Shown piece by piece: positions 54,817 through 63,997 of a stretch of 64,000 bases of DNA. The translations under genes and the position numbers were made by a program. Source of the DNA: Haloterrigena gelatinilytica (GTDB taxonomy: Archaea > Halobacteriota > Halobacteria > Halobacteriales > Natrialbaceae); NCBI RefSeq assembly GCF_013342145.1, contig NZ_JABUQZ010000001.1, positions 1,426,001 through 1,490,000 on the forward strand, read 5' to 3'. Every line of letters starts with the position of its first letter. Position 1 is the stretch's first letter. Under the pieces are notes generated by a model, which saw only the letters and a program-made list of their open reading frames with translations, ran no database searches and was not told the DNA's origin.

Positions 54817-56190
54817 TTACAGGTTCGCGCTGACCCACTCCGAGAACGGACCGGTGAGGAAGTCGACGTAGTCGACGATCCCCAGGTACAGGGAGACGGC
54901 GAGGACGGCGATGATCGGGACGCGAACCGCCCAGATCCACGCCTGTCCGAGCGATCCGAGATCGCCGATTCCCTTCGAGAGTTCCTCGACGGCGAATTGC
55001 GGGGCGACCCAGCCGACGAGCAGCATCAATACGAGCGCGCCAAACACCAGCAGAATGCCGTCGGCGAACAGGTCCAGCAGGTCGAGGAAGATCAGGTCGT
55101 ACGTGACCGGAATACCGAGCAGGTAGATGACGCCGCCCATCCCGAGGGCCGCCTTCCACCGTTCGACACCCTTCTCGTCGATGACGTACGCCGTCACGAC
55201 CTCGAGCAGCGAAATCGCGCTCGAGAGCGCCGCGATGGCGACGGTGCCGAAGAAGAGGAGGCCGAGCAGTCGCCCGCCGGAGAGGTCGGCGAACGCTTGA
55301 GTCATCGAGACGAAGATCGCACCGGGACCGCCCTCGCCCGGATCGGTGATGCCGGCCGCGAAGAAGATGGGGAAGACGACTAGACCGGTCAGGAACGCGA
55401 TTCCGGTGTCGAACCCGATGATCGTCGCGGCGTCTTTAGTCAGGTTCCGATCTTCGCCGAGGTAGGACGCGTAGGTGATCATCACACCCATCCCGAGCGA
55501 GAGGGTGAAGAACGCCTGTCCGGCCGCCGCCGGCAGGAGGTTCGTCCAGTTCGACGTGATGGTGCTGAAGTCCGGAGAGAGGTAGTACTCGTAGCCGGCA
55601 CCGGACCCGGAGAGGGTGAACGCCCAGACGGCCAGCCCGGCGAGCAGGACGACGATCGCCGGCACCATCGCCTTCGTCGCGACCTCGATGCCGCGTCGGA
55701 TCCCGAGCGCGACGACGCCGATCGTCACGGCCATGAAGACCGTGTGCAGAACGAACGCGTCCATTCCCGTGGATACTTCGCCGAACATCGCGCCCGCTTC
55801 GCCGCCGTGTGTGGCGAGGCGGTCCGCGTAGCTTCCGCGGAAGCCCTCGAAAAAGTAGCGGATGAACCAGCCGGCGACGACGCTGTAGTACGACAGGATC
55901 ACGAAGCCGGTGACGATGAACACGCCGCCGACGTACTTCCAGGCGTTACCGCCGAGTTCGAGCAGCGCTCCGACCGGGTTCCGTTCGGTTCGGCGCCCGA
56001 CGACGAACTCGACCAGAATCGCCGGGAAGCCGATGAACGCGACGAACAGCAGATAGACGACGAGAAACGCCGCCCCGCCCCCGTCTGCCGTAATGAACGG
56101 GAACCGCCAGATATTCCCTAGCCCGACTGCGCTGCCGACGGCAGCCAGGATGAAGCCTGTTCTCGTTGCCCATGTTTCGCGTTGTGCCAT
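54817..56190 (-). CDS. sodium-dependent transporter, SNF/NSS family
   Basis: A 457-residue, about 12-helix transporter of the neurotransmitter:sodium symporter family. TM1 carries AAVGSAVGLGNIWRFPFITADGGGAAFLVVYL with the unwound helix motif of the Na+ and substrate sites. Charged loops EFVVGRRTERNPVGALL and LGEDRNLTKDAATIIGFD are typical. It probably imports an amino acid. It is divergent from the liv operon, with a shared 298-bp promoter region. Confidence 0.93.
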   Translation of the reverse strand: MAQRETWATRTGFILAAVGSAVGLGNIWRFPFITADGGGAAFLVVYLLFVAFIGFPAILVEFVVGRRTERNPVGALLELGGNAWKYVGGVFIVTGFVILSYYSVVAGWFIRYFFEGFRGSYADRLATHGGEAGAMFGEVSTGMDAFVLHTVFMAVTIGVVALGIRRGIEVATKAMVPAIVVLLAGLAVWAFTLSGSGAGYEYYLSPDFSTITSNWTNLLPAAAGQAFFTLSLGMGVMITYASYLGEDRNLTKDAATIIGFDTGIAFLTGLVVFPIFFAAGITDPGEGGPGAIFVSMTQAFADLSGGRLLGLLFFGTVAIAALSSAISLLEVVTAYVIDEKGVERWKAALGMGGVIYLLGIPVTYDLIFLDLLDLFADGILLVFGALVLMLLVGWVAPQFAVEELSKGIGDLGSLGQAWIWAVRVPIIAVLAVSLYLGIVDYVDFLTGPFSEWVSANL

Positions 56191-56488: not shown

Positions 56489-57601
56489 ATGTCCACAGTA
56501 GATGAGGCGGTCAACCGGGGTCGAAATCTCTCGTCCGAGCAGCTCCTGTTACTGATCGTGGGGATCGGTGCCGTGGCGTTGCTGGGAGACCTGATTCTCG
56601 GCCTCGCGAGCGGGACGTACAGCATCTCACGTGTCGCCCGATACGTGACGGAAGGGATCCTCTACGGGCTGATTATCGGGCTCGCCGGGATCGGGCTCTC
56701 GATGACCTACAGCATCCTCAACTTCGCGAACTTCGCTCACGGGGACTACGTGACGACGGGGGCGTTTTTCGGGTGGGGAGTCACGTACCTCGTCGCCGGT
56801 TGGGGCGTCGCGAGCGTCGGCCCGCTCGTCCTCGTCGCACCTCAGCGCGAGGTCTCCGGAGCGCAACTTGACGTCGCGATCACCGCGACGCCGGTCGCCG
56901 TCCTCGCCGGCCTCCTCGTGGCCGGCGTCGCGACGGCGCTTTTCGTGTTGCTGATCGACCGCGTGGCTTTCAAACCGGTCCGCGGTTCGGGCGGTATTCC
57001 GCTGCTGATCACGAGCGTCGGCGTGGCGTTCGCGCTCCGGTACGTTCTCGTGTTCGTCTACTCGAGCAGCACGCGCGGCACGACCGCGAGCGTACCGTCC
57101 GTCGATTTCCTCCTGGTCGACGGCTACGTGTCGATCGGCGCCCACGACGCGACGTTGATCGTCGCCGCGGTCGCGCTGATGCTCGGCGTTCACTTCCTGC
57201 TCCAGCGGACGAAACTCGGGAAAGCGATGCGAGCGATGTCGGACAACCGAGACCTGGCCCTCGTCACCGGCATCCCGACCGAACGGGTGATCCGGTGGAC
57301 CTGGATGATCGGCGGCGGCCTCGCCGGCACCGCGGGCTATCTCATGGTGTTGTGGACGGGGACCATCGACTGGCAGTTCGGGTGGTTGCTGTTGTTGCTG
57401 ATCTTCGCGGCCGTGATCCTCGGCGGGATCGGCTCGATCTACGGGGCCATCTTCGGCGGCCTGGTCATCGGCGTCGGCATGCACATGTCGATGATCTGGC
57501 TCCCCGGCGGCGACTTCACGACGATCACCGCGTTCCTGCTGATGATCCTCGTCCTGCTGATCAGACCGTCCGGACTCTTCGGAGGGAAGACGACGGCATG
57601 A
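56489..57601 (+). CDS. livH: branched-chain amino acid ABC transporter permease LivH-like
   Basis: A 370-residue permease with about nine hydrophobic helices and the LivH signatures GLIIGLAGIGLSMTYSILNFANFAHGDYVTTGAFF and QRTKLGKAMRAMSDNRDLALVTGI. The stop overlaps the livM start (ATGA). First gene of livHMGF. The transported amino acid is not sure; liv-type systems in archaea also carry other amides or organic acids. Confidence 0.93.
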   Translation: MSTVDEAVNRGRNLSSEQLLLLIVGIGAVALLGDLILGLASGTYSISRVARYVTEGILYGLIIGLAGIGLSMTYSILNFANFAHGDYVTTGAFFGWGVTYLVAGWGVASVGPLVLVAPQREVSGAQLDVAITATPVAVLAGLLVAGVATALFVLLIDRVAFKPVRGSGGIPLLITSVGVAFALRYVLVFVYSSSTRGTTASVPSVDFLLVDGYVSIGAHDATLIVAAVALMLGVHFLLQRTKLGKAMRAMSDNRDLALVTGIPTERVIRWTWMIGGGLAGTAGYLMVLWTGTIDWQFGWLLLLLIFAAVILGGIGSIYGAIFGGLVIGVGMHMSMIWLPGGDFTTITAFLLMILVLLIRPSGLFGGKTTA

Positions 57602-58950
57602 GCGCGAATACGACCGCGAACGCGGCGGACGAACGGACTCGATTGGAAGCGCTCTGGGAACGGGACGCCGTGAAGATCCTCGCGGCCTTCGCGGCGATCT
57701 ATCTCGTCTACGCGGCGATCGGTCTCGCGCTCGGCTACTCCCTCGACGGGATCGTCAACACCTTGCGGCGGATGACCTACCTGATCGCCGTCTACGGGAT
57801 GGTCACGCTGGCGCTGAACCTCCACTGGGGGTACACCGGCCTGTTCAACATCGGTGTCGCGGGATTCATGGCGATCGGGCTGTACGTGACGATGATGCTG
57901 GCGAAACCGGTCGACCCGACCGGCGCCGCACAGTACCCGGGGCTCGGGCTCCCGATGCCGATCGCGATCGCCGGCGGCGTCGTCGCCGCCGGCCTGGCGG
58001 GCCTCGTCGTCGCGATCCCCGCGTTGCGCCTCCGGGCCGACTACTTCGCGATCACGACGATCGCCTTCGCGGAGATCGTCCGGTTGGGGCTCACCTCTGG
58101 TGCGGCCCAGCAGTTCAGCGTCCTCGGGGCCGAACTGGGGACCGGCGGCGGTCGCGGTCTCACTCGAAACTACGCCGATCCGATGAACGTCATCTTCGAG
58201 CTCGAGGCGTTCTCCTCGTTCGTCGACCTCACGAACGCCCTGTTCGGCTTCGGGCCGACGCAGGCGCGGTCGCTGGCCTATTCGATCGTGCTCGTGCTCG
58301 TCCTGATCGGGTTCTACTGGCTCATCCAGCGGACCAGTCGATCGCCGTTCGGACGCGTCCTCAAAGCGATCCGCGAGGACGAGGAGGCCGCCCAATCGCT
58401 CGGGAAGAACACGAACCGATTCAAGATCAAGGTGTTCGTGCTCGGCTGTGCCCTGATGGGCCTGGCCGGCATCCTCTGGCGGTTCCGTCGCACCGGCGTG
58501 ACGCCGACGGCGTTCCGACCGCACGTCACGTTCTACATCTGGATCGCGCTGATAATCGGTGGCGCCGGTTCGAACACCGGCAGCGTCCTCGGCTCCGGGC
58601 TCTTCGTCGCGGTGCTGTTCGAGGGGCCACGCTACGTGCGCCGCCTGATCGAGGAGGTCATCACGGTCGGCGACGCGCCGAACACGTTCGCCGGTGCCGT
58701 GGGGCCGCTGCTCTCGGCGAACCCGGCGCCGTTCCTGCGGTACACCTTCGACGAGTTCCTGACGCTGCAGTTCGTGTTGATGGGCGTCGCGCTCGTCCTC
58801 CTCATGCATCGACGGCCCGACGGGCTGCTCGGCCATCGGGAGGAGACGGCGGCGGCGATCCCCCTGACGGATCGACCCGCCGCCGAGACCGGAGGCGAGA
58901 CCGCAGCCGGACCTGGAACTGATTCCGATCACGGGGGTGATTCCCAGTGA
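57598..58950 (+). CDS. livM: branched-chain amino acid ABC transporter permease LivM-like
   Basis: A 450-residue permease, partner of LivH, with about ten hydrophobic helices: GYTGLFNIGVAGFMAIGLYV, RLRADYFAITTIAFAEIVRLGLT and SRSPFGRVLKAIREDEEAAQSLGKNTNRFKIKVFVLG (EAA-like loop that contacts the ATPase). The last 50 residues are an acidic Thr/Gly-rich tail. Overlaps livG by 4 bp (GTGA). Confidence 0.93.
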   Translation: MSANTTANAADERTRLEALWERDAVKILAAFAAIYLVYAAIGLALGYSLDGIVNTLRRMTYLIAVYGMVTLALNLHWGYTGLFNIGVAGFMAIGLYVTMMLAKPVDPTGAAQYPGLGLPMPIAIAGGVVAAGLAGLVVAIPALRLRADYFAITTIAFAEIVRLGLTSGAAQQFSVLGAELGTGGGRGLTRNYADPMNVIFELEAFSSFVDLTNALFGFGPTQARSLAYSIVLVLVLIGFYWLIQRTSRSPFGRVLKAIREDEEAAQSLGKNTNRFKIKVFVLGCALMGLAGILWRFRRTGVTPTAFRPHVTFYIWIALIIGGAGSNTGSVLGSGLFVAVLFEGPRYVRRLIEEVITVGDAPNTFAGAVGPLLSANPAPFLRYTFDEFLTLQFVLMGVALVLLMHRRPDGLLGHREETAAAIPLTDRPAAETGGETAAGPGTDSDHGGDSQ

Positions 58951-59780
58951 GCGATACGACCACCGAACCGACCGACTCCCTGACGAGCGAGCGCCCGGAT
59001 CGACCGACGGACGGCGTCGAGTTGGCCGTCGACGGTCTGGTCAAGCGCTTCGGCGGGATCACGGCCGTCGACGGCGCGACGTTCGCGGTCGAGTCGGGAT
59101 CGATGACCGGACTGATCGGTCCCAACGGCGCGGGGAAGTCGACGACGTTCAACTGCATCACGGGGATCCACGAACCCGACGCCGGAACGGTGACGTTTCA
59201 GGGGGAGGACATCACGGGCATCAGGCCCTACCAGTGCGCCGAACACGGGCTCGTCCGGACGTTCCAGATCGCTCGGGAGATGGCGAATATGACGGTCCTC
59301 GAGAACCTGATGCTGCCGGCGAAACGCCAGCGGGGCGAAGCGCTCTGGCGATCGGTGTTGCCGGTCACCCGCCGGGACGTCGTCCGAGAGGAGCGCGAAC
59401 TCCTAGAGCGCGTGTGGGACACCCTCGAGTTCTTCGAGATTCAGCACCTCGCGGCGGAGAAAGCGGGAACCCTCTCGGGCGGCCAGCGGAAGCTCCTCGA
59501 ACTGGCGCGCGCGTTGATGACCGACCCGGAGATGCTCCTGCTCGACGAGCCGTTCGCGGGCGTCAACCCCACGCTCGAGAAGAAGTTGCTCGAACACGTC
59601 CACGACCTCCGCGAGGAGGGGTACACGTTCCTGATCGTCGAACACGACATGGACCTCATCATGGAGAACTGCGAGCGGGTCATCGTCATGCACCAGGGGT
59701 CGGTGCTGGCCGAGGGCGCCCCGGAAGCGATCACCTCGAACGAGCGGGTCATCGAGGCCTATCTCGGAGGTGAGGTCTGA
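58947..59780 (+). CDS. livG: branched-chain amino acid ABC transporter ATPase LivG-like
   Basis: A 277-residue ATPase. Walker A GPNGAGKST, FQIAREMANMTVLENLM (Q-loop), signature GTLSGGQRKLLELARALM, Walker B MLLLDEPFAGVNP, and switch His in IVEHDMDLIMENC. The GVNP and DMDLIM spelling is typical for LivG. GTG start with a 4-bp overlap with livM. The stop shares a base with the livF start (TGATG). Confidence 0.95.
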   Translation: MSDTTTEPTDSLTSERPDRPTDGVELAVDGLVKRFGGITAVDGATFAVESGSMTGLIGPNGAGKSTTFNCITGIHEPDAGTVTFQGEDITGIRPYQCAEHGLVRTFQIAREMANMTVLENLMLPAKRQRGEALWRSVLPVTRRDVVREERELLERVWDTLEFFEIQHLAAEKAGTLSGGQRKLLELARALMTDPEMLLLDEPFAGVNPTLEKKLLEHVHDLREEGYTFLIVEHDMDLIMENCERVIVMHQGSVLAEGAPEAITSNERVIEAYLGGEV

Positions 59781-60484
59781 TGGCGATGCTCGACGTCAGG
59801 GACCTCGACGCCGGCTACGGGGACCTGCAGATCCTGCACGGCGTCGATCTCGAGGTGACCGAAGACGAGTACGTGGTCATCGTCGGCCCCAACGGCGCCG
59901 GGAAGTCGACGGCCATGAAGTCCGTCTTCGGACTGACGACGTACATGGGGGGGACGGTCGAGTTCAAAGGAGCGGACATCACCGGCCGCTCGCCCGACGA
60001 GATCATCCACGAGGGAATCGGCTACGTTCCCCAGAACGACAACGTCTTCCCGTCGCTGACGGTCCGCGAGAACCTCGAGATGGGCGCGTACATCCTCGAC
60101 GAGGTGCCGGAGGCGGCGCTCGAGAGCGTGTTCGCTCAGTTCCCCGTACTCCGCGAGCGACAGGAGCAGAAGGCGGGCTCGATGAGCGGCGGCCAACAGC
60201 AGATGGTCGCGATGGGGCGCGCGCTGATGCTCGATCCCGACCTGTTGTTGCTCGACGAACCCAGCGCGGGCCTGGCCCCCGACCTCGTCGACGAGATGTT
60301 CGATCACGTCGACGCGATCAACGCCAGCGGTACCGCCGTCTTGGTCGTCGAACAGAACGCGAAGGAGGCCTTGCACCGCTGCGACCGGGGCTACGTCCTC
60401 GTTCAGGGCTCGAACCGATACGAGGACGCCGGCGAGGCCCTGCTGAACGACGACGAGGTCCGCCAGCAGTTCCTCGGCGGTTAG
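59780..60484 (+). CDS. livF: branched-chain amino acid ABC transporter ATPase LivF-like
   Basis: A 234-residue ATPase. Walker A GPNGAGKST, GIGYVPQNDNVFPSLTVRENL, signature GSMSGGQQQMVAMGRALM, Walker B LLLLDEPSAGLAPDLVDEMF, and VVEQNAKEALHRCDRGYVL, a LivF hallmark. Last gene of livHMGF, convergent with the substrate-binding protein gene 105 bp beyond. Confidence 0.95.
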   Translation: MAMLDVRDLDAGYGDLQILHGVDLEVTEDEYVVIVGPNGAGKSTAMKSVFGLTTYMGGTVEFKGADITGRSPDEIIHEGIGYVPQNDNVFPSLTVRENLEMGAYILDEVPEAALESVFAQFPVLRERQEQKAGSMSGGQQQMVAMGRALMLDPDLLLLDEPSAGLAPDLVDEMFDHVDAINASGTAVLVVEQNAKEALHRCDRGYVLVQGSNRYEDAGEALLNDDEVRQQFLGG

Positions 60485-60589: not shown

Positions 60590-61867
60590 CTACTCGGCCA
60601 GTGCGGACTCGAGTTCGCCGGTGTACGAGCCCTGTTCGGGCTCGAACGAGACCTCGTTGAGCGCCTCGCCGCCCTGATCGTTCTCGACGGACTCGACGTA
60701 CTGCTCCGAGAGCTGCTGTCCGTAGTCGTTGTTGACGTACAGCGTGGCCACCTGGTCCGCGTCGAGGCGATTCGCGGAGACCTCCGCCATCACCTGCCCT
60801 TGCAGCAGGTCGCTCGGCGCGGTCCGGAAGAAGTAGCCGTCGTCCTCGACGTTCGACAGGGACAGCGCCGTACTGGCCGGCGAACACTGGACGACGCTCG
60901 CGCTGCTGGTCTCGCCGACCAGCGGGACGGAGTTGCCGGACGACGCGGCGCCGACGATCGCGGGATACCCCGCGTCGATGAGCGCGCCGCCGTTGCTGAG
61001 GGTCGTGTCCTCGTCGGTCTCCGTGTCCTCGACCTGCAGATCGAACGTGAGGTCGACCCCTTCCATCCGTCGAATGGCCAGGCGGCCGGCGTCGATCATC
61101 GGGGTGCCGAGTTCGCCGAGGTCTCCCGTCTCGGGGAGCAACATCGCGACCATCACGTCGCGTCCGGTCCCGCCGGGCGACTCGTCGGCCGTCTCGCCGC
61201 CGGGACCGTCTCCCTCGAACGTGATCGTATCGACCGTTTCGATGTCACCGTCGCTGAACTCCCAGACGTCGTAGGCGGCCTCCGCGGGGTCACCGACGTC
61301 GTCGAAGTCGACCGCGCTCGAAGCGCCCTGATAGGCGATCTCGTTGCCGGCCGCGGCGGCTTCGGCGGCCGCCTGGAGTTCGCCGGGGCCGTACTCGTCG
61401 CCGCCGGGGTTCGCGACCCGGCGCATCTGATCTCGGATCGCCTGGCCGTCGTTCTCGCCGGCCGCGACGTTCGCGAGGGTACACACCGCGACGGCGTCGA
61501 ACGTGTGCGAGGTGAACACGCCCGGTGATTCGCCGAACTCGTCCTCGTAGAGCTCTGCGAAGGCGTCTTCGTGCGGGCCCTGGGACGCCGGCGCGGTGCC
61601 GGTGACGTTCGTCATGTCGTTCCCGACTTCGTCGGGGAGATCGCCGTCCTGTAGGCCGTCGGGGACGATGATCTCCGTCCCGGTGTCGAAGTCGGCGTAG
61701 AAGTCCCGAAAGATCTGAATGCCGCTCTCCGGGTAGCCGATGACGTTCAGGACGTCCGGGCCGCCTCCTTCGACGGCCCCTTCGTCGCCGATACATCCGG
61801 CGAGACCGATCGCACCTGCACCACTGATCCCACTGAGTACCCACCTCCGATTGACTTGCCTTACCAT
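60590..61867 (-). CDS. ABC transporter substrate-binding lipoprotein (LivK-like), circularly permuted
   Basis: A 425-residue lipoprotein with a lipobox LAGC (Cys25) and a Tat-like NRRWVLSG start. In ordinary LivK-type proteins the lobe with VAMLLPETGDLGELG...GYFFRTAPSDLLQGQ...YVNNDYGQQLSEQY...SYTGELESALAE comes first, and the lobe starting GPDVLNVIGYPESGIQIFRDFY and ending WEFSDGDIETVDTITFEG comes second. Here the order is reversed: residues 36-218 are the usual C-terminal half and 237-425 the usual N-terminal half, joined by a Gly/Pro/Glu-rich linker (219-236). No part seems lost. A TATA-like CTATATAGG at about 61888-61898 is 26 bp before ATG 61867. It faces livHMGF and probably supplies it. 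Confidence 0.8.
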   Translation of the reverse strand: MVRQVNRRWVLSGISGAGAIGLAGCIGDEGAVEGGGPDVLNVIGYPESGIQIFRDFYADFDTGTEIIVPDGLQDGDLPDEVGNDMTNVTGTAPASQGPHEDAFAELYEDEFGESPGVFTSHTFDAVAVCTLANVAAGENDGQAIRDQMRRVANPGGDEYGPGELQAAAEAAAAGNEIAYQGASSAVDFDDVGDPAEAAYDVWEFSDGDIETVDTITFEGDGPGGETADESPGGTGRDVMVAMLLPETGDLGELGTPMIDAGRLAIRRMEGVDLTFDLQVEDTETDEDTTLSNGGALIDAGYPAIVGAASSGNSVPLVGETSSASVVQCSPASTALSLSNVEDDGYFFRTAPSDLLQGQVMAEVSANRLDADQVATLYVNNDYGQQLSEQYVESVENDQGGEALNEVSFEPEQGSYTGELESALAE

Positions 61868-62086: not shown

Positions 62087-63637
62087 ATGACGATGGAAGA
62101 CCGTATCGACGAACTCCAGGACCTCCGCGAGGAAGCCGAGCTAGGCGGCGGCGAGGACCGCATCGAAAAGCAACACGACAAGGGGAAGATGACCGCCCGG
62201 GAGCGGATCGACTACTTCCTCGACGAGGGCACCTTCACGGAGTTCGATCAGCTCCGGACCCACCAGACGAGCCAGTTCGGGATGGAGGAGAAGAAGATTC
62301 CCGGCGACGGCGTCGTCACGGGCTACGGCGAGGTCAACGGACGTACCGTCTTCGTCTTCGCCCACGACTTCACCGTCTTCGGCGGCTCGCTCGGGGAGGT
62401 CTTCGCCGAGAAGATCTGCAAGGTCATGGACATGGCCATGGAGGTCGGCGCTCCCGTCGTCGGGCTCAACGACTCCGCAGGCGCCCGCATTCAGGAGGGC
62501 GTCAAGAGTCTGGCCGGGTTCACCGAAATCTTCCGGCGCAATCAGGAAGCCAGCGGCGTCGTTCCCCAGATCTCCTCTATCATGGGCCCCTGCGCCGGCG
62601 GCGCGGTCTACTCGCCGTCGATTACCGACTTCATCTTCATGGTCAAGGACACGAGCCACATGTACATCACCGGGCCCGGGGTCACCAAGACCGTCACCGG
62701 CGAGGAGGTCACCCACGAGGAGCTCGGTGGCGCGATGACCCACGCCGGCAAGACCGGCGTCGCCCAGTTCGCCTGCGAGAGCGAAGAGCAGGCCTTAGAC
62801 GACATCAAGCGACTGCTCTCTTATCTCCCGCAGAACAACATGGAAGATCCGCCGCGCGTCGAGCCGTGGGACGACCCCGACCGCCGGGACGAGGAGCTGA
62901 AGTCGATCGTCCCGCCGAGCCCCCAGAAGCCCTACGACATGGTCGACGTCATCGACAGCGTCGTCGACGAGGGTTCGTTCTTCGAGGTCGCGGAGAACTT
63001 CGCCAAGGAACTGGTCGTCGGCTTCGGCCGCCTCGACGGGCGCTCGGTCGGCCTCGTCGCCAACCAGCCCCGCGTCAACGCCGGCACGCTCACCGTCGAC
63101 TCCTCGATGAAGGGGTCGCGGTTCGTCCGCTTCTGTGACTCCTTTAACATCCCCATCGTCACCTTCGTCGACGTCCCCGGCTACATGCCCGGCACCGATC
63201 AGGAACACCGCGGGATCATCCGCCACGGCGCGAAACTGCTCTACGCGTACGCGGAAGCCACCGTCCCCCTGCTGACGGTCATCACTCGGAAGGCCTACGG
63301 CGGCGCCTACTGCGTCATGGCCTCGAAGAACCTCGGCGCCGACGTCAACTACGCCTGGCCGACCGCCGAGATCGCAGTCATGGGACCACAGGGCGCGGTC
63401 AACATCCTCTATCGGGAGGAACTCGCGGAGTCCGACAACCCCGACGAGCTCCGGGACGAACTCATCGAGGAGTACCGCGAGGAGTTCGCCAACCCGTACA
63501 CTGCAACGGACAAAGGCTTCCTCGACGACGTGATCGTCCCCACGGAGACGCGGCCGCGGCTGATCGACGACCTCGAGATGCTCGAGACGAAACGCGAACA
63601 GAATCCCGACAAGAAACACGGCAACATCCCGCTGTAA
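62087..63637 (+). CDS. pccB: acyl-CoA (propionyl-CoA) carboxylase carboxyltransferase subunit
   Basis: A 516-residue biotin-dependent carboxyltransferase of the PccB/AccD type. The N-terminal crotonase-like domain has the acyl-CoA site (VVGLNDSAGARIQEGVKSLAGF, GPCAGGAVYSP) and the C-terminal domain the biotin site (VDVPGYMPGTDQEHRGIIRHGAKLLYAYAEATVP, RKAYGGAYCVMASK, PTAEIAVMGPQGAVNI). Found in haloarchaea as the beta subunit of propionyl-CoA carboxylase, which works with PccA and the small PccX. ATG 62087 is preferred; 62093 is possible. Followed 3 bp later by the pccX-like gene. Confidence 0.93.
   Translation: MTMEDRIDELQDLREEAELGGGEDRIEKQHDKGKMTARERIDYFLDEGTFTEFDQLRTHQTSQFGMEEKKIPGDGVVTGYGEVNGRTVFVFAHDFTVFGGSLGEVFAEKICKVMDMAMEVGAPVVGLNDSAGARIQEGVKSLAGFTEIFRRNQEASGVVPQISSIMGPCAGGAVYSPSITDFIFMVKDTSHMYITGPGVTKTVTGEEVTHEELGGAMTHAGKTGVAQFACESEEQALDDIKRLLSYLPQNNMEDPPRVEPWDDPDRRDEELKSIVPPSPQKPYDMVDVIDSVVDEGSFFEVAENFAKELVVGFGRLDGRSVGLVANQPRVNAGTLTVDSSMKGSRFVRFCDSFNIPIVTFVDVPGYMPGTDQEHRGIIRHGAKLLYAYAEATVPLLTVITRKAYGGAYCVMASKNLGADVNYAWPTAEIAVMGPQGAVNILYREELAESDNPDELRDELIEEYREEFANPYTATDKGFLDDVIVPTETRPRLIDDLEMLETKREQNPDKKHGNIPL

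Positions 63638-63997
<360 letters not shown>

Follow-up and report, generated by a model that had tools for sequence, protein, structure and literature searches.

The DNA analysed here (the window) is a stretch of 64,000 nucleotides from Haloterrigena gelatinilytica. On its reverse strand, at 60590-61867, translation gives a single open frame of 425 amino acids, with its ATG at 61867 and its stop codon at 60590-60592, that encodes a substrate-binding protein (SBP). The adjacent genes encode a LivHMGF transporter, the partner expected of LivK-type SBPs, and convergence of the SBP gene with livF-livG-livM-livH is the usual arrangement among the loci compared (80 named loci, 37 regions). The features are collected in Table 1. 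Further out, a gene for an NSS-family symporter lies beyond livH at 54817-56190; in several Natrialba and Natronorubrum genomes the same gene is found between pccB and the SBP gene, and it moves around the locus. A small acidic Ala-rich ORF of 118 amino acids (63641-63997) directly follows pccB, with which it is conserved in Natrialbaceae, and is possibly a small carboxylase subunit.

Table 1. Genes and protein segments at the SBP locus, in window positions.
Feature	Position	Strand	Basis
livH, permease of the branched-chain amino-acid type, convergent with the SBP gene	56489..57601	+	PF02653, 129.8 bits; synteny
livM, permease	57598..58950	+	PF02653, 154.9 bits; synteny
livG, ATPase	58947..59780	+	PF00005 and PF12399
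livF, ATPase	59780..60484	+	PF00005
N-terminal half of LivK-type protein, residues 237-425, and stop codon; placed last	60590..61159	-	PF13458, 3td9, profiles, model
Linker EGDGPGGETADESPGGTGR, 19 residues, 218-236; P1-type	61160..61216	-	Half-profile and linker comparison
C-terminal half of LivK-type binding protein, residues 36-217; placed first	61217..61762	-	Mapping to 3td9 204-328; C-half profile
Short Gly/Glu/Asp-rich spacer after the lipobox, residues 26-35	61763..61792	-	Translation; spacer lengths in relatives
Signal sequence with twin-arginine motif NRRWVL and lipobox LAGC	61793..61867	-	Translation; motifs of relatives
Carboxyltransferase subunit, which we take to be pccB-like	62087..63637	+	Synteny

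The preliminary description of this gene proposed that the two halves of the binding protein are swapped behind a normal lipoprotein signal, and the open frame, the Pfam match and the alignment to a known structure bear this out. Cys25 of the lipobox LAGC is presumed to be the lipid-modified residue, and a Tat-like motif with a lipobox is present in most relatives of either half order. Pfam family PF13458 (Peripla_BP_6) matches the protein in two stretches with 75.3 bits, above the curated cut-off of 31.7 and as expected of a Peripla_BP_6/LivK-type Type I SBP; the best stretch aligns protein residues 238-423 with profile positions 2-187. The canonical N-to-C strand order of this family is absent: against Thermotoga LivK (3td9), residues 238-420 correspond to 17-198 and residues 36-157 to 204-328, i.e. 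in swapped order. The Gly/Pro/Asp-rich linker bridges the ancestral termini, running from the former C-terminus to the former N-terminus, and the N-terminal half closes with the helix that, in the usual order, would lead into the first C-half strand. Positions 61170-61220, singled out earlier, fall on the boundary between the C-terminal half and the linker, the linker itself occupying 61160-61216. The protein had also been said to stop exactly where the halves normally join, and this agrees with its relatives, since in 60 of 61 normal-order proteins the gap between the half-profiles is exactly 3 residues. In intact permuted proteins (124 of 129 ORFs) the chain runs on for 1-5 residues past the N-half profile; the other five ORFs are broken, masked or run off the locus.

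AlphaFold models were obtained for the mature permuted protein (pLDDT 92, pTM 0.90, from an 83-sequence alignment) and for the normal-order homologue L134 (pLDDT 92, pTM 0.85). The order of elements in the two models is an exact rotation, the first 14 elements of the normal protein being the last of the permuted one. With 13 + 14 predicted secondary-structure elements in place of the normal 14 + 13, the earlier statement that nothing has been lost is upheld. The cut comes after the 14th of the 27 elements; in the numbering of the normal protein it separates helix 186-192 from strand 199-203, both of which we take to belong to lobe 2 by homology with the LIV-binding protein fold. The new termini are accordingly placed by the models in a 3-residue helix-strand surface loop of lobe 2. 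In sequential Foldseek alignment, about half of the permuted model aligned to LivK 3td9 (186 columns, TMt 0.46), whereas the normal-order model gave a full match (377 columns, TMt 0.82). The confident model, together with the sequential match of half of it to LIVBP/LivK, points to the bilobed Type I fold, and sequence, half-profiles, models and Foldseek fully support the proposed circular permutation with the signal kept at the front. At the level of sequence patterns, 125-128 of the 129 permuted ORFs have motifs around the sites expected to contact the ligand in LIV-BP. There is thus a high likelihood that the window protein is a functional, circularly permuted SBP of Type I (LivJ/LivK-type, Peripla_BP_6).

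In the proposed rearrangement, the ancestral ends would have been joined by a linker of 18-24 residues and new ends opened in the 3-residue surface loop of lobe 2. The lipid-anchored N-terminus would then enter lobe 2 instead of lobe 1, a move of the anchor that would follow from the geometry. With the bilobed fold and the binding motifs apparently kept, the permuted protein has most likely remained a flytrap binding protein, closing in the usual way on branched-chain or similar amino acids, and it would serve the facing LivHMGF importer. The propionyl-CoA-carboxylase-like neighbour would fit uptake of amino acids that are degraded to propionyl-CoA. Relocation of the anchor is weakened as the sole selective reason for the permutation, and cannot be the full explanation, since 13 of the 104 main-lineage (P1-type) sequences lack the lipobox Cys. 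Type I folds also act as receptors, and the permuted protein could have become a cell-surface sensor or decoy that is no longer a transport component; the 13 main-lineage copies without the Cys and the genomes with two tandem copies would suit such a role. We consider it very improbable, as the permuted protein is usually the SBP beside one livHMGF cassette and the SBP tree and the permease tree recover the same groups. Two tandem permuted SBP genes per liv cassette are found in Haladaptatus-type genomes (loci L067, L064, L069, L070, L078 and L189), in which several of the second copies have no lipobox Cys.

Single full-length alignments over both halves were found in 18 of 61 genomes of relatives, the window's own included. 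In the order Halobacteriales, approximately 161 of 392 sampled genomes contain a continuous permuted match, a manual tally at a best E <= 1e-76 that includes three broken or rearranged copies (G375, frameshifted; G188, interrupted; G318, type 2). In most other genomes of the order that gave matches, each half matched separately and the order was normal. Among the 80 named loci, the permuted protein occurs in Natrialba, Natronorubrum, Haladaptatus, Halorussus, Halorubrum, Haloferax, Haloquadratum and Haloarcula, among others, and in Haloterrigena salina at 96% identity. No permuted match was found outside the order across 148 genomes sampled from the phylum, and none among the best plasmid matches, all of which were two-piece. 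Values of dN/dS among four close permuted sequences range from 0.11 to 0.29 and are similar for the two halves; the permuted gene is under purifying selection. A swapped order within one gene is unusual a priori, and an assembly artefact or misread frames might be suspected; this has next to no probability and is ruled out by conservation in orthologues, the same order being present in about 161 of 392 genomes, complete ones included, with open frames at 46-96% identity and selection acting on the gene. Two damaged copies were seen. In one, a P2-lineage permuted SBP gene (L197/L248, G188:C2:2081228-2083864) is interrupted by an insertion of about 1.4 kb; the other (L195/L249, G375:C13:22714-23497) is a frame-broken copy in a Natrialba-like genome, where a pseudogene or a draft error is possible.

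The permutation is therefore old and conserved across Halobacteriales. Because the order is common to so many relatives, the swap is a widespread ancient variant that is not private to the H. gelatinilytica genome, and confirmation at the level of reads is unneeded. The rarity claimed in the preliminary description holds for binding proteins generally but not for this clade. The same order in ordinary relatives, named there as evidence against a swap, was found in part: many relatives are themselves permuted, and others have the normal order at the same locus. In Natrialbaceae and some others the SBP gene also adjoins pccB and an SDR gene, and pccB is a kept neighbour of both permuted and normal-order SBP genes in Natrialbaceae. 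The same locus thus carries a permuted SBP in some genomes and a normal-order SBP in others, and in some genomes (G040, G055) both kinds of copy coexist. Normal-order haloarchaeal homologues (for example L134, L176 and L179) have livFGMH, pccB and SDR as neighbours and share approximately 45-61% identity per half with the permuted protein, from which they differ in the order of their own halves.

Linkers of the permuted proteins are 18-24 residues long and fall into three classes, exemplified by EGDNPDGAGPSADDSPGGLGR (P1, the window protein and most others), GNELSDEDRNATAADPVGVDSF (P2, Halorubrum type) and GASGDVPQPEPAGSGSGSDR (P3, Haloarcula type). Likeness within each class is strong (median z 7.4, 10.8 and 8.3), whereas linkers of different classes are unrelated (median z -0.15 to 0.16). 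Each permutation makes its own linker, so unrelated linkers argue for separate events. The cut site is identical in all permuted lineages (P1-P3), which in turn argues for a strong constraint or bias at this loop. One speculative idea is that the DNA of the Asp/Gly-rich spacer after the lipobox resembles that of the Asp-Asp-Pro-Asp loop, so that illegitimate recombination might favour this cut.

Trees of the SBP, built from the joined halves and from each half, contain three permuted groups, of which the two smaller lie among normal-order proteins; P2 is placed with the normal-order sequences L023 and L198, and P2 and P3 lie among different normal-order relatives. When all permuted SBPs were constrained to one clade, AU tests gave p-AU values of 0.118, 0.191 and 0.187, which are compatible with a single origin. 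The LivHM permease tree provides independent data; it contains the same three groups and rejects monophyly of all permuted loci (p-AU 1.2e-4), in a setting where the groups had been named after viewing the SBP trees, so that the tests are not fully blind. With SBP and permease concatenated, a single clade was rejected at p-AU 1.8e-42, a value not to be taken literally as the constrained search was short. A divergent permuted SBP with a partly main-lineage-like linker and an unsure tree position (L228, G395:C1:1636770-1638077) may be a fourth permuted lineage or a divergent member of P1.

Recurrent permutation at one loop is the best reading of these data, the SBP data by themselves being compatible with one origin, and we regard three or more independent origins as likely. 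A single permutation in early haloarchaea, after which the P2 and P3 halves were overwritten by gene conversion or recombination with normal-order cassettes and the linkers diverged, would account for exactly the same cut in every lineage and for the SBP-only AU tests that leave one clade unrejected, and permuted and normal copies such as those that coexist in G040 and G055 would supply templates. It is a minority possibility in our view, because the permease genes of the three groups also separate, because linker sequences have held over deep divergences inside each lineage yet show no relation from one lineage to another, and because each non-main group sits among different normal-order relatives. 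The whole course of events preferred here, which on balance is probable, comprises at least three independent permutations at the identical 3-residue loop, each with a new and then conserved linker, and one lineage re-permuted at another loop.

The re-permuted branch consists of a type-2 permutant in three genomes, G318 (L196/L247, G318:C7:20398-21735, reverse strand), G401 and G405, the latter two being 98% and 90% identical. Type 2 begins at the second strand of the N-terminal half, continues into the C-terminal half through the restored normal junction SALSGDPDGLFIVGYPE, and then has the P1 linker followed by the first strand and helix of the N-terminal half. It is nested in P1 (support 99/98) and its linker is P1-like (z 5.4), from which it follows that type 2 arose by a further permutation of a P1 permutant, which shifted the cut to lobe 1 and kept the old linker. 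The type-2 loci of the three genomes are L196 and L247, L256 and L257.

The second permutation fits repeated tandem duplication and trimming, and tandem duplication followed by trimming would most simply explain the permutation route as a whole; the tandem pair of permuted SBPs in Haladaptatus and relatives can be cited alongside this route. Trees of the N-terminal and C-terminal halves place the main lineage identically, as expected if one gene supplied both. The preliminary description had proposed tandem duplication with loss of one half from each copy, which is compatible with the data but unproven as a route, no fused tandem intermediate having been found among the 190 ORFs with both halves (CN or NC). 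The sole match with an N-C-N arrangement proved to be a complete type-2 permutant whose parts complement one another, and was rejected as an intermediate. Fission and fusion, a recognised route to circular permutants (PMC3320104), would instead have joined two half-proteins in reverse, perhaps from different paralogues, and the position of the cut between compact segments would suit it. This route appears improbable: the half trees agree on the placement of the main lineage, leaving fusion of two different paralogues unsupported, no stand-alone C-half gene was seen, and stand-alone N-half matches are remote paralogues or a split copy.

Several known systems can be compared with the permuted family. 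LivJ/LivK-type SBPs (PF13458; Thermotoga LivK 3td9, E. coli LIVBP) share with it homologous halves, the livHMGF cassette and the motifs at ligand positions, whereas the window protein has swapped halves, a new linker between the ancestral ends and termini in lobe 2. Natural circular permutants of Type I binding proteins are represented by TpMglB-2 (Tp0684) of Treponema pallidum, founder of the "Type Ic / Cluster Bc" proteins, an MglB-type protein in which the first three strands of the N-lobe have moved to the end, and which has been shown experimentally to bind glucose and change conformation (PMC4990184). Its Type Ic relatives occur in Gram-positive bacteria (PMC4990184). Like TpMglB-2, the window protein is a Type I binding protein that has been circularly permuted in nature and carries a lipoprotein signal at the front. 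It differs in that the cut lies in lobe 2 and the first three N-lobe strands do not form the C-terminus, in its archaeal host, in having normal-order homologues at the same locus, and in being LivK-type; its Pfam and PDB matches are those of the LivK/Peripla_BP_6 group rather than of MglB-like glucose/galactose-binding proteins. Permutation by duplication has been described for saposin/swaposin and for DNA methyltransferases (PMC3320104). These resemble the present case in the route proposed and in the notion that permutations may be repeated or intermediate. They are unrelated protein families, and here one re-permuted branch is present and no fused intermediate was found.

A search of the literature, with subscription literature outside its reach, found no report of permuted archaeal or LivK-type binding proteins. 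What is new here is a permuted LivK-type archaeal family; natural permuted Type I binding proteins were already known, and recurrence is the unusual part. To our knowledge, a natural circular permutation usually goes back to one ancient event and is documented only by distant pairs of proteins. A probable several-fold origin at the same loop would be unusual for any protein family. The permuted order is invisible in databases, in which standard annotation gives two partial domain matches and names an ordinary SBP. If true, recurrent permutation would be a natural experiment in which the locus still houses normal-order homologues. Permuted and normal proteins share this locus and its transporter in related species, in several probably independent lineages and with a re-permuted branch, which makes the steps and consequences of permutation testable, including the route, the choice of the cut site, and the effects on binding and docking.
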